This document shows positions 16,505 to 19,380 of a stretch of 21,550 bases of DNA, piece after piece (position 1 is the stretch's first letter; every line of letters begins with the position of its first letter). The notes beneath the pieces were generated by a model. That model was given only the letters and a program-made list of their open reading frames with translations, was not told the origin of the DNA and searched no databases. The DNA is taken from positions 1 through 21,550 of the IMG/VR virus record IMGVR_UViG_3300044533_000533; one strand, 5' to 3'. The stretch comes from a virus. The position numbers were made by a program, and so were the translations under genes.

Positions 16505-16722
16505 AGTAGTTTTTGATTGTGTTCACCGAGTTGGATAAATCCTGAATCCGATGTACTGCCAGTTACTTTGATGAAGTCAACTTCAATCTTGGCTGAGTTG
16601 ATAATCACTTGTGAAACATCTGCCATCGTTTGTGCAGTTTCAATGTCAATCTCACCATCTCTTAATTTTTCCAATACTTCAAAAAGGTGATCTCGTAGGT
16701 CGGTCATTTTATTTCTTGCCAT
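16501..16722 (-). CDS. Conserved small phage protein, replication cluster
   Basis: A 73-residue, mostly helical protein: MTDLRDHLFEVLEKLRDGEI, then TAQTMADVSQVIINSAKIEVDFIKVTG. I recognise the LRDHLFEVLEKLRDG and AKIEVDFIK parts from small proteins common in Bacteroidota phages near replication genes; the function is unknown. A second in-frame ATG at 16707 (MTDLRDHLF) lies one base after the HNH stop and is the alternative start; the longer form overlaps the HNH gene by 14 bases. Confidence 0.68.
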   Translation of the reverse strand: MARNKMTDLRDHLFEVLEKLRDGEIDIETAQTMADVSQVIINSAKIEVDFIKVTGSTSDSGFIQLGEHNQKLL

Positions 16723-17305
16723 AGCTGTTTATTTTTCTTGTTATTTGTTTTTTGATGTGAATTACTTCTTTCAATTCTGGTGGTAGATTTTGTATGTGGT
16801 TTCTTCGGATGTGTTCCACTCGGTCAATGACCTCCAAGTTTTCAATGCAGATGTTCTGCTTGTTGCGGTCTTTGAACACGACAAACATTCCTGGTGGTAT
16901 TTCTCCGTGATGCTCTTTCCAAAGTAGCTTGTGAACAAACTCAAATCCGACATCTATTCTTTCAACCAGGTATCCATCCCGAAGTGAACGGAATCCAATT
17001 TGTTTGGTGTTGTGTGGTTGATGTCCTTTTTTGAATTGAGTTATTCCACCACCGATGTTTAATCCTTTCATCCCTTTGTTCCAAGATGTCATTCCCTTTT
17101 TGAAATGTGTATTCGGATGACCCTTGTAGTTGTCTTTGTAGTATTGCATCAACCATTCCTGGTCTTTGTGCAATCCCATTTTGTTTGCACGGTTATAAAT
17201 TTGACTCACTTTGCAATTAAATATCTTCGCCAGATCCTTCGTCAATGTCGTAGGATATAAGCGTACGAGTTCATTCACCTCTTCCGTTGTCCAATACTTT
17301 CTCAT
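16709..17305 (-). CDS. HNH endonuclease with N-terminal DNA-binding domain (homing-type)
   Basis: A 198-residue protein. I use the ATG at 17305 because it overlaps the helicase stop as ATGA; an upstream Met at 17362 would lie inside the helicase. Residues 1-50 form a Myb/SANT-like helical domain (YWTTEEVNELVRLYP, KIFNCKVSQIYNRANKMGLHK). The middle has FKKG and NKG motifs of NUMOD type. The C-terminus holds an HNH-3-like core: FVHKLLWKEHHGEIPPGMFV and FKDRNKQNICIENLEVID. This is the pattern of free-standing phage homing endonucleases that cut a site in related genomes. It lies between replication genes, a common place for such invaders. Confidence 0.88.
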   Translation of the reverse strand: MRKYWTTEEVNELVRLYPTTLTKDLAKIFNCKVSQIYNRANKMGLHKDQEWLMQYYKDNYKGHPNTHFKKGMTSWNKGMKGLNIGGGITQFKKGHQPHNTKQIGFRSLRDGYLVERIDVGFEFVHKLLWKEHHGEIPPGMFVVFKDRNKQNICIENLEVIDRVEHIRRNHIQNLPPELKEVIHIKKQITRKINSYGKK

Positions 17306-18534
17306 AGTCGTTCTTCGTACATTGTGCGTGATCCAATAAAGGTGGTGTCTATCGTGTGGCATTCTCCGTGCCTGTTCTTTGCGATAATCAATTCAGCATC
17401 TTCCTTCTCAAGCTTCTCACCTGAATAGTATGCCGGTCGGAAGGGAAACATAACGACATCCGCATCTTGTTCAATACTTCCACTTTCTCGGATATCACTC
17501 AGCATAGGTCTCTTGTCCGCTCTCTCCTCACATTTGCGTGATAACTGAGCCAACACTATCACGGTGATGTTTAGTTCCTTAGAAAGCAATTTTAGGTTTC
17601 GGGATATCTCTGCAATTTCTTGCTCCCTGTTTTGTTTTGTTCCTTTGATCAACTGGATGTAATCAATCACCAACAACTCAAGTCCGTGTTTAGCTTTATG
17701 TATCTTGGCTTTGGATTTGATTTGCATAATTGAGCAGTTGGGGTCATCGTCAATGAAGAATTGCACTGTCTGATTGTTGGCTTTGTCAATGATGATATCC
17801 ACTTCGTATTCTCTCAATGTCGCATTCCTAATCTTCCAGCTTGAGATGTCGGTGATCAATGATAAATATCGTTTGGCAATTTGGTCGTTACTCATCTCCA
17901 ACGATACAAACAAACCTTTCCCATCACGCTTGGCAAACTCCCACATCAAAGTAAGAGCGAGTGCCGTTTTACCTTGACCAGGTCTTGCAGCCATCACAAC
18001 TAAATCACCGGGATTCCATCCGCCTAACATCCTATCCAGTCCAACCCATCCCGTTGGTCTACCGGTTAGTTGATCACCACGCTTCACGGCTTCAATGATT
18101 GTATCAACGGCTTTGTTTGTAACTTGTGTAATCTGAACAGGGTCGTTGATGCTTGTGAACTTGGTGTTGTCTATCATCGTTTGGACATTGGTGAGCAATT
18201 CTTTCAAGTCGGTTGCCAAATCCAAAGTAGAAAGGTTGTTCAAGAATTCCTTCTTCAGGTACTTGTGTTCAAGTTCGGGCAGGTGACTGCTGATGTTTGG
18301 CATCCCGTATACATCTTGAGTCAAGCGAACAATGTAGATCATCTCTTCCCGTTTGAATAATCTGCCCAAAGTCAGAACATCAATGGGGTCGTTGTTAATG
18401 TACATCTCCAACATTGCCTCAATGATGCGTTTGTTTAGCTTGTCTTCAAACCATTGCGATTTGATGCGTGGAAGCATTGCTCTTGTTTGGTCATAAAACA
18501 AAAGTTGGGAAAGTATATATTGCTCAGAGTTCAT
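17302..18534 (-). CDS. dnaB: Replicative DNA helicase, DnaB-type
   Basis: A 410-residue protein with the DnaB layout: N-terminal helical domain (residues 1-100), linker, and a RecA-like ATPase. Walker A is AARPGQGKTALAL (182-194) and Walker B is ELLVIDYIQLI (286-296). The DnaB segment VIVLAQLSRKCEERAD (325-340) follows, and then DIRESGSIEQDADVVMFPFR (347-366), a DnaB signature. It unwinds the fork for phage replication. The N-terminal domain is slightly shorter than in host DnaB, which is common in phages. It overlaps the loader-like gene upstream by 11 bases and the HNH gene downstream by four. Confidence 0.95.
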   Translation of the reverse strand: MNSEQYILSQLLFYDQTRAMLPRIKSQWFEDKLNKRIIEAMLEMYINNDPIDVLTLGRLFKREEMIYIVRLTQDVYGMPNISSHLPELEHKYLKKEFLNNLSTLDLATDLKELLTNVQTMIDNTKFTSINDPVQITQVTNKAVDTIIEAVKRGDQLTGRPTGWVGLDRMLGGWNPGDLVVMAARPGQGKTALALTLMWEFAKRDGKGLFVSLEMSNDQIAKRYLSLITDISSWKIRNATLREYEVDIIIDKANNQTVQFFIDDDPNCSIMQIKSKAKIHKAKHGLELLVIDYIQLIKGTKQNREQEIAEISRNLKLLSKELNITVIVLAQLSRKCEERADKRPMLSDIRESGSIEQDADVVMFPFRPAYYSGEKLEKEDAELIIAKNRHGECHTIDTTFIGSRTMYEERL

Positions 18535-19249
18535 AGTCTTTCAAATTAAACTTACTTCGGTGGATTATTTGTTGATTACTCGTATTATTTTTGTTAAAAG
18601 TTTTTGATTTTGCAATCCAACTCACTACACACGATTTCCATTTTTGAATTTTCTGATTACCCCTTTGCCAATTGAGTGATTCCCAATAATGAAAAAAAGC
18701 AACCGCCTCGCTGATTGATTCACCTTTTAGTATAAACTCATCAATACATTCTTGTTCAGTTGGTGTTCTTTTAATTGTATTTTTTGATACATAGGGAGTA
18801 AGTTTTGGTTTGTCTTCCTCTCTTTCTTTTGTTAAATTATTACTTTGTGGAATGTCTTCTTTATATATAGTATGGTTTTCGGACAGTCCGAGATTCGGTA
18901 AGTCCGACGGTTGGTCAATCCGACATTCGGTCAGTACTGGTTCTTCATAGACAATATGATTCCATCCACGCACGAGATTTGTTTCAGCATCAATCACACG
19001 AACTGAAACGATATACCCTTTGTCGACCAATCCTTTCCAATGGGTATTGAATCGGTTTCTACCTATGTTCATTTTCTGCCAAATGACGGTCTTATAAACC
19101 ACCCAATCTTCAGGCAATGATAATAGATAGACCAAGATTGTTTTTTCCTCACAAGTCAACTGTGAGCTTTGCAAGATATCATTGTTGATGGGAGTGTATC
19201 TGCTCTTCCCCGTTTTTTTGCTTCTAACTATTTGTCCTATATTTTCCAT
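18524..19249 (-). CDS. Winged-helix replication protein / helicase loader-like
   Basis: A 241-residue protein. Residues ~17-85 form a winged helix-turn-helix (RYTPINNDILQSSQLTCEEK, then VYLLSLPEDWVVYK and GLVDKGYIVSVRV), like the N-terminal DNA-binding part of phage replication initiators. A polar linker (about 105-160) follows. The C-terminal 165-215 has EAVAFFHYWESLNWQ and IQKWKSCVVSWI, similar to DnaT/DnaD-type helicase loader segments. It precedes and overlaps the DnaB gene, the expected place for an initiator-loader. It starts with ATG at 19249, only five bases after the T-run of a terminator-like hairpin, so its expression must depend on read-through of that structure. Confidence 0.78.
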   Translation of the reverse strand: MENIGQIVRSKKTGKSRYTPINNDILQSSQLTCEEKTILVYLLSLPEDWVVYKTVIWQKMNIGRNRFNTHWKGLVDKGYIVSVRVIDAETNLVRGWNHIVYEEPVLTECRIDQPSDLPNLGLSENHTIYKEDIPQSNNLTKEREEDKPKLTPYVSKNTIKRTPTEQECIDEFILKGESISEAVAFFHYWESLNWQRGNQKIQKWKSCVVSWIAKSKTFNKNNTSNQQIIHRSKFNLKDYEL

Positions 19250-19254
19250 AAATC

Positions 19255-19304
19255 AAAAAACCCCCGAACAAATACCCAAGTGCGAGTTGAGTATTTGCCG
19301 AGGG
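19255..19304 (-). terminator. Terminator-like hairpin just before the replication gene start (leader hairpin 2)
   Basis: On the minus strand the arms 19304-19287 and 19279-19261 pair over 18 base pairs with three G-U wobbles and one bulged T, closing a 7-nt loop CTCGCAC (19286-19280), and six T residues follow (19260-19255). The wobbles would be A-C mismatches on the plus strand, so the structure is selected as minus-strand RNA. The T run ends five bases before the ATG at 19249. A terminator this close to a start codon implies attenuation or the end of a short RNA. The loop is exactly complementary to that of the hairpin at 19320-19338. Confidence 0.88.
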
Positions 19305-19319
19305 CAAAATGTCTTTGTC

Positions 19320-19338
19320 AGTTGTCTCGCACACAACT
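19320..19338 (-). ncRNA. Leader hairpin 1, loop complementary to hairpin 2
   Basis: On the minus strand AGTTGT and ACAACT form a perfect 6-bp stem with a 7-nt loop GTGCGAG (19332-19326). The loop is the exact reverse complement of the hairpin 2 loop CTCGCAC. The stem begins about five bases downstream of the predicted transcription start of the promoter at 19349-19380, so this is the 5' end of a roughly 90-nt leader or short RNA. Fifteen bases (GACAAAGACATTTTG) separate the two hairpins. Confidence 0.75.
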
Positions 19339-19348
19339 ATTAACACAA

Positions 19349-19380
19349 CAAATTTAATCAATCATTGCGGATATCCCAAA
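19349..19380 (-). promoter_or_regulatory. Bacteroidota-type promoter for the replication leader
   Basis: Minus strand: TTTG at 19380-19377, 20 bases, then TAAATTTG at 19356-19349. This matches the Bacteroidota primary sigma-factor promoter (-33 TTTG and -7 TAnnTTTG) in both motifs and in spacing. The predicted start is near 19343, so the transcript begins just before hairpin 1. The -33 part and spacer lie in the 3' end of the preceding gene, whose stop is at 19362. Confidence 0.75.

Follow-up and report, generated by a model that had tools for sequence, protein, structure and literature searches.

We analysed a 21,550-base virus record (IMG/VR IMGVR_UViG_3300044533_000533; hereafter the window), in which a leader with two complementary hairpin loops and an intrinsic terminator stands directly in front of a replication operon. 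Leader and operon lie on the minus strand, and consist of the following elements, given in nucleotides (nt), base pairs (bp) and amino acids (aa).

19377..19380, minus strand: −33 promoter element TTTG, from the sequence
19349..19356, minus strand: −7 promoter element TAAATTTG (TAnnTTTG), with 20 nt between it and TTTG
19320..19338, minus strand: hairpin 1 (H1), 6 bp, AGTTGT-GTGCGAG-ACAACT, from sequence and predicted fold; the stem covaries
19326..19332, minus strand: kissing loop 1, GTGCGAG, from sequence and covariation
19305..19319, minus strand: linker between the hairpins, ending TTTTG before CCC, mostly unpaired in the predicted fold
about 19261..19304, minus strand: hairpin 2 (H2), terminator stem of about 18 bp with loop CTCGCAC, from fold and covariation
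19280..19286, minus strand: kissing loop 2, CTCGCAC, exact reverse complement of loop 1, from sequence and covariation
19255..19260, minus strand: T6 tract of the intrinsic terminator, from the sequence
18524..19249, minus strand: replication initiator or DnaD-like helicase-loader, 241 aa, from profile matches
17302..18534, minus strand: DnaB-like replicative helicase, second gene of the operon (PHROG 19, 5.9e-90; DnaB_C, 4.9e-86)

We take TTTG-N20-TAAATTTG to be a promoter of the Bacteroidota type, and its position would place the transcript start near 19343. The ATG of the initiator gene, at 19249, lies 5 nt past the T tract, in agreement with an earlier note on this DNA that had put a terminator directly before the replication gene. 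RNA folding predicted H1 and H2, each with its 7-nt loop unpaired (−32.1 kcal/mol, z −3.85), and no further copy of the loop 7-mer was found on either strand of the window beyond the two loops. The 241-aa protein matched PHROG 186 (DnaD-like loader, 2.4e-11) and PHROG 4707 (replication initiation, 1.2e-6), with no Pfam match at 0.001. The tail tape-measure protein of the window matched those of Cellulophaga phages at about 30% identity across 31% of its length, which together with the promoter type points to a host in the Bacteroidota.

Loop pairing in related leaders

Relatives of the window initiator are encoded at 42 IMG/VR loci. At the 28 loci with upstream DNA that we inspected, every loop pair was complementary, lying further upstream where a gene intervenes, and the loops themselves varied (GTACGAG/CTCGTAC, GTAAGAG/CTCTTAC, GTAGGAG/CTCCTAC, GTCGAG/CTCGAC, GTAGAGG/CCTCTAC and others). 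The earlier note had named, as damaging to its proposal, relatives that keep the stems and lose the complementarity of the loops; the loops of these relatives differ and stay complementary. Additional leaders came from pattern scans that used only letters of the linker and terminator and also returned chance matches; part of the pattern, the linker variants, was written after those leaders had been seen. Among 53 distinct strong single-terminator sequences, 52 had at least 6 nt of Watson–Crick complementarity between the terminator loop and the loop of an upstream hairpin, the exception (L128) being a chromosomal chance match. When loops were swapped between leaders with different loop sequences (kissing words), only 46/2568 combinations reached 6 nt.

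Our least biased tests were a sample reached through the helicase (the DnaB sample) and the alignment made from it (A3). The sample comprised the best 80 of at least 598 stretches encoding relatives of the window DnaB, which are the closest ones and not a random draw. Five of these loci have at most 350 bases upstream of dnaB; the other 75 were scanned up to 2300 bases with an automatic rule (terminator hairpin, T5, loop of 6–11 nt, at least 6 nt Watson–Crick, H1 stem of at least 4 bp). Paired loops were present at all 75: 65 were found by the automatic rule, 7 have loops TGCGGG and CCCGTA, which form six pairs including one G-U, and 3 (L228, L232 and L235) were found by inspection and combine a full kiss with an interrupted T tract. 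A covariance model (R1) that encodes the stems and not the kiss, built from an alignment of 25 distinct leaders picked for 7-nt loops (A2), recovered the window leader and those of 74 of the 80 loci.

For counts across leaders we used 87 distinct ones, leaving out L128, leaders cut by a contig end, and L228, L232 and L235. An exact reverse complement of the loop-1 word was present in 82, the other five being of the TGCGGG/CCCGTA type. The 29 kissing words that we extracted overlap in part (for example, TCGCAGC and GTCGCAG), and 18 of them are 7-mers, mostly of the form GT-NNN-RG. Polarity is reversed in L112, L157, L243 and L245, in which a pyrimidine-rich word lies upstream and its purine-rich partner caps the terminator.

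All 175 kissing cells of A2 were Watson–Crick, with none G-U and 51 changed on both sides; 0/500 shuffles attained the paired count or the two-sided count, and slid registers paired at 30–65%. The stems of H1 and H2 also covaried. A3, made by R1, has 48 distinct rows from the DnaB sample and the window; of its 323 kissing cells 96.9% were paired, and 84 had changed on both sides (0/500 shuffles). Of five measures, that of further standard pair types for the kiss was not above shuffles (302/500 reached the value in A2 and 498/500 in A3), and 10/500 shuffles reached the number of A3 pairs with a two-sided change; the remaining covariation measures were reached by no shuffle in either alignment. 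Loop complementarity is kept by compensatory change in both alignments, which supports the kissing-loop leader RNA of the earlier note; loop pairs that change together in related phages were what it had proposed to look for.

Cultured phages were reached through relatives of the initiator family. A kissing terminator precedes the replication cluster in Cellulophaga phi19:3 and phi13:2, Flavobacterium 11b, Olleya Harreka_1, and Flavobacterium elemoA_1-9A, tooticki9-1 and hattifnatt9-1; the replication gene itself is preceded by one or two small genes in 11b, Harreka_1, elemoA, tooticki and hattifnatt. A second kissing terminator with another word stands before an endonuclease gene annotated with PF07463 in tooticki and hattifnatt (records L249 and L250, T tracts at 691 and 1735: two leaders, two words). 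Several cultured phages have larger H1 loops by eye, and the H1 stem is unclear in phi19:3 and phi13:2, where the scan credits 2 bp. R1 does not detect the phi19:3 leader and gave no match in L243 or L244 at E values up to 5, although the sequence of L243 does contain a leader. Examination of the 4.1–4.3 kb surrounding the replication-gene match revealed no kissing terminator in Riemerella RAP44, Leeuwenhoekiella Arctus_1 or two faecal records. In bacterial genomes, 0/16 contig pattern matches were leaders by R1, in a search that covered 77 chosen loci with near-duplicates left out. R1 also had no match at E 0.01 in 299 genomes of one Flavobacterium's family, under stricter filters, with no positive control and with a model biased to the main family; one weak match (E 0.08) appeared in one of four genomes searched.

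We asked how often such pairs arise by chance. The figure of 1 in 16,000 in the earlier note ignores multiple looks, although the complementarity behind it was confirmed by comparison among relatives. Under a loose rule (a loop match of at least 6 nt, together with an H1 stem of 4 bp or more lying within 75 nt), 1/31 terminator-like sites of the window passed, namely the replication leader, compared with 1.1% of shuffled upstream regions. Across the whole-genome scans the shuffled rate at 6 nt was 1.1–2.5% per site, and the loose 6-nt rule was passed by 1/138 sites in lambda and 0/66 in Bacteroides B40-8. In phi17:1, 6/69 sites passed, all with 6-nt matches only, and no leader was counted there. 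Harreka_1 had 4/48 passing sites; only the one at the replication cluster has the long H1 stem, the promoter and the position, and at the 15318 site a 4-bp stem accompanies a match of 8 nt. Matches of at least 7 nt numbered one in 11b, two in tooticki, one in the window and two in Harreka_1 (one of them at the replication cluster), and none in phi17:1, lambda and B40-8. We reject chance complementarity on the comparative covariation (175/175 cells, 51 two-sided), which settles the matter, and on the terminator-site scans of six complete phage genomes and the window. On the transcript strand, G-U accounts for 291/1585 terminator-stem pairs (18%) in the 87 leaders. Because such pairs are frequent, the selected molecule is the minus-strand RNA, as had been argued from the window and now holds family-wide, and a DNA-level signal is rejected.

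The anatomy of the leader is regular. TAnnTTTG lies upstream of 76/87 leaders (5.8% of shuffles), and in 71 of those 76 its last base is 15–20 nt before loop 1, a spacing that would put the transcript start near the foot of H1 by the usual distance from promoter to start. The nearest ATG after the T tract is at offset 0 in 54/87 leaders and within 14 nt in 86/87. In 84/87, no more than 15 nt separate the T tract from the start of an open reading frame (ORF) of at least 40 aa (offset 0 in 37 of them), which leaves no room for another promoter; of the three leaders without such an ORF, two run off the contig. The starts of the two loops are 45–54 nt apart in the 82/87 leaders measured, a near-fixed distance as expected for pairing in cis. 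Terminator stems have 15–20 pairs and linker length is near-constant; by a geometric estimate, a linker of about 17 nt would be only just long enough to run back along about 31 stacked pairs.

Several further features were observed in subsets of leaders. Main-family H1 (A2 columns 4–20) has a 5-bp stem and a 7-nt loop with T at position 2, A or G at position 6 and three variable bases between them, a shape that we take to resemble a tRNA anticodon arm. It probably reflects the constraint of a kissing loop; alternatively, it could serve as a decoy for anticodon nucleases. A further short repeat, hairpin-like and with T7 (for example, GAGGG...CCCTC TTTTTTT), separates the promoter-like TATATTTG from H1 in L014, L015 and L016, where two terminators may follow one another; the stretch that resembles it in L046, L145 and L160 has a T tract that is shorter or broken. 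In some leaders the loop-1 word recurs as a third copy, placed between the end of the T tract and the start codon or overlapping them (for example, ATTCGCAGCAAAATG): L029 (just after 1783), L158, L182, L196, L219 and L221 and also L046; it is one base shorter in L173 and only 5 nt long in L217, L218 and L225. Third copies of at least 6 nt occurred in 8/87 leaders versus 26/7076 mixed pairs. Seven of the eight carry one word, probably as one lineage, and the window has no third copy, so we kept it out of the general model. Where it is present, loop 2 could also pair beside the start codon in read-through mRNA.

Kissing words and the genes behind them

Closely related phages often carry different kissing words: this was true of 46/78 pairs of distinct leaders with at least 85% identity over the next 300 bases. 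L015 and L016 share 94% identity upstream and 98% downstream and only 72% in the leader, and L025 and L028, 98% identical upstream, have terminator hairpins that differ in the loop only, matching the change in H1. The predicted duplex averaged −9.5 kcal/mol for a leader's own words and −2.1 for mixed words, with 46/812 mixed pairs at or below −6 kcal/mol. The three records with two leaders (L162, tooticki and hattifnatt) use two different words each. The loop pairs thus behave as alleles that mostly do not cross-pair. Recombination of leaders together with covariation can explain this pattern; as a hypothesis, the words may also be under diversifying selection.

At most loci the leader heads the replication operon, and the first gene varies. 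Proteins of the type MSGWIK... matched PHROG 2514 (DnaD-like loader, 1.1e-26), those of the type MSKDPA... matched PHROG 270 (replication initiation, 7.6e-15), and the types MSKNKKSF... and MRESM... matched PHROG 15768 (unknown function) with weak primosomal or O-like matches. The initiator types differ in their N-terminal parts; some have a weak C-terminal similarity in common, and a description as unrelated families was dropped. In L009 and L044, whose different initiators follow the same word, GTAAGAG, the C-terminal match covers 27 aa at 30% identity (E 0.002), and PHROG 15768 was matched in L044, L009, the MSGWIK... type and the window. DnaB then follows the initiator, or in L023 a primase-helicase (PHROG 239, 7.2e-95).

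Other genes can join the operon. Endonuclease-like genes lie between T tract and initiator at several loci, of which three were checked: L003 (1516-2139, HNH), L029 (1796-2317, NUMOD4/HNH_3) and L004 (2699-3001, GIY-YIG-like, slightly under the Pfam cut-off). The gap from T tract to dnaB is at least 1 kb in 28/72 DnaB-sample leaders, which therefore have room for an extra gene, and about 0.58–0.89 kb in the other 44. The slot after dnaB is variable as well: it holds an HNH protein in the window (16709-17362), proteins starting MRHGSLFSGIGGFDLAAEWMGW in some relatives, which we presume from a motif to be cytosine methyltransferase-like, and different proteins in others. Each of 21 large records with an R1 match had one leader, in a scan of 25 that missed four whose leaders R1 had found in the DnaB-sample search. 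The two leaders of contig L162 (2383-2466 and 5860-5947, minus strand) have different words, and the second lies upstream of an exonuclease-like protein (PHROG 149, 2e-25).

Probable attenuation and competing explanations

We read the leader as a cis-acting 5′ transcription attenuator closed by a kissing-loop pseudoknot, with the replication operon expressed by read-through, and on sequence and folding models give this a probability of about 0.62. The predicted structure, covariation, strand, position and allelic distribution lead us to infer the transcript ends, the termination and the regulation. Two readings had been put forward for the window, a terminated small RNA (sRNA) and an attenuator; the ORF directly behind the T tract makes attenuation the simplest function and leaves the sRNA less favoured. 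The order is promoter, terminator, gene, with no room for a second promoter.

Transcription would start at the 5′ foot of H1, and loop 2 would be captured by loop 1 as it emerges. On arrival of the 3′ arm the terminator would close with the loops still able to kiss, giving a rod of H1, a kissing helix of 6–9 bp and a terminator of 15–20 bp, with the linker running back alongside. Most transcripts would end at the T tract and release an RNA of about 90 nt, which may also have a function of its own; initiator and DnaB would be made from the leader promoter only by read-through, as required by a start codon directly behind the T tract. The kissing pair would tune the success of the terminator, its sequence serving as an allele-specific key. 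When growing A2 transcripts were folded as a consensus, the helix between the loops was best at columns 68–72 and H1 with H2 from column 76; among single folds, this helix was in the best structure for 21/25 leaders at column 74 and 0/25 at column 86. Since the fold of H1 and H2 leaves both loops free, the kiss can persist, which supports the proposal that loop pairing need not melt the terminator; the two compete only before the 3′ arm is made. The kiss may lock the terminator or, if formed first, delay it.

Several observations weigh against attenuation. We found no conserved antiterminator helix besides the loop–loop pairing in the A2 consensus and eight truncated leaders, so that a classic two-state switch is not visible, and the terminators are strong, so that the RNA itself could be the product. 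The interrupted T tracts of L228, L232 and L235 may terminate poorly. No ORF of 40 aa begins in the first 22 nt after the T tract of L123; the next one, about 440 nt further along, has its only match in a PHROG of unknown function. Finally, the DnaB sample represents the nearest relatives.

An extension of the attenuator is the alternative that fares best, although we hold it only tentatively: the released RNA would pair in trans with nascent same-allele leaders, adjust their termination and ignore foreign alleles, providing self-recognising control of dosage or superinfection. Each RNA carries a loop and its complement, which makes such pairing possible, and it would explain the turnover of alleles; the word differences between phages with near-identical downstream DNA, the poor predicted cross-pairing and the two words of two-leader genomes all fit. 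However, the cis partner is always near, and a partner in trans must beat its high local concentration; neutral covariation with leader recombination could yield the same allele pattern, and the search for a trans partner covered the window 7-mer and opposite-strand promoters. Slightly more doubtful, on the sequences at hand, is a fully RNA-based phage compatibility, in which the leader RNA would shut (or open) same-allele operons in trans with no repressor protein.

It is unlikely that the RNA of about 90 nt is a stand-alone sRNA (a decoy, sponge or anti-defence product) that the kiss folds or protects, with the downstream genes living on leak. Promoter, compact fold and strong terminator do make a complete sRNA gene, its loop sequences diversify, and varied genes can follow it, including endonuclease-like ones, but a free sRNA would need neither an ORF right behind the T tract in 84/87 leaders nor its place before the replication operons of diverse phages. 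Less probable again is a riboswitch or protein-controlled attenuator, in which a host or phage factor, possibly the initiator, binds H1, the linker or the kissing complex. The main-family linker is partly conserved (GTTAAA...TTTGCCC), and the weak C-terminal similarity of same-word initiators (L009 and L044; PHROG 15768) would allow a shared partner; yet the linker differs between leader families, the loops vary freely as pairs, and GTAAGAG precedes initiators with different N-terminal parts.

Attenuation by an opposite-strand antisense RNA, as in plasmid pT181, is very improbable. It shares the place, a replication-gene leader, and the kissing loops, but both loops of the phage leader are predicted to pair with each other within one transcript. 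By the consensus motif only, opposite-strand TAnnTTTG occurred within 150 nt downstream in 6/85 leaders, below the shuffled 12.7%, and inside the leader in 6/87. We give least credence of all to an element acting at the level of DNA (a cruciform, an origin or a binding site) or to an ordinary terminator whose loops are complementary by chance, which the adjoining replication genes would suit and which the G-U pairs on the transcript strand, the loop covariation and the register of promoter, T tract and ORF contradict.

Known systems resemble the leader in part. The gene attenuated in pT181 is repC, and repR of pIP501 has a similar system. The pT181 attenuator is described as a plasmid 5′ leader in which kissing hairpins decide read-through of an intrinsic terminator; a separate antisense RNA provides the other side of the kiss, and a defined antiterminator sequesters the 5′ arm of the terminator (PMC4878617). 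The phage leader likewise combines an intrinsic terminator with predicted kissing hairpins, whereas its partner is a hairpin in the same transcript that would pair with the terminator's own loop. The CI RNA of phage P4 also acts on a phage replication operon by RNA–RNA pairing and premature termination, but as a processed RNA in trans, whereas the present leader would pair two of its own loops at a near-fixed distance. The rep leader pseudoknot of IncB and IncI-alpha plasmids is likewise a loop–loop pairing in a replication-gene leader; its effect is on translation, and antisense RNA blocks it, whereas here the second loop caps a terminator. RNA I and RNA II of ColE1 form fully paired 7-nt kissing loops that diverge between compatibility groups, similar to the kissing words, but they act between molecules and control primer formation rather than termination before an initiator gene.

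Rfam gave no match at gathering score at the leader in the window or ten loci, with two tRNAs elsewhere; at a relaxed threshold, six loci had sub-gathering scores only, among them FuFi-1 (20.6 of 59.6 bits), which overlaps the L067 leader. Among the literature matches listed, by title and the beginning of the abstract and with preprints and most subscription papers outside, none describes such a leader. The main text of the Harreka_1 paper uses none of the words terminator, hairpin, small RNA and non-coding (PMC8776804). The leaders apparently form an undescribed class of RNA, which stands before the replication operons of flavobacterial phages and of many of their uncultured relatives.

The loop match changes as a pair between otherwise similar phages, so that these phages hold a natural library of mostly orthogonal kissing terminators, and the cultured examples make the class testable at once. 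Both the effect of loop–loop contacts on intrinsic termination and the role of RNA alleles as keys to phage compatibility become accessible to experiment. If the RNA-only form of compatibility is true, the kissing alleles would be exclusion groups, swapped by recombination in the manner of immunity regions.

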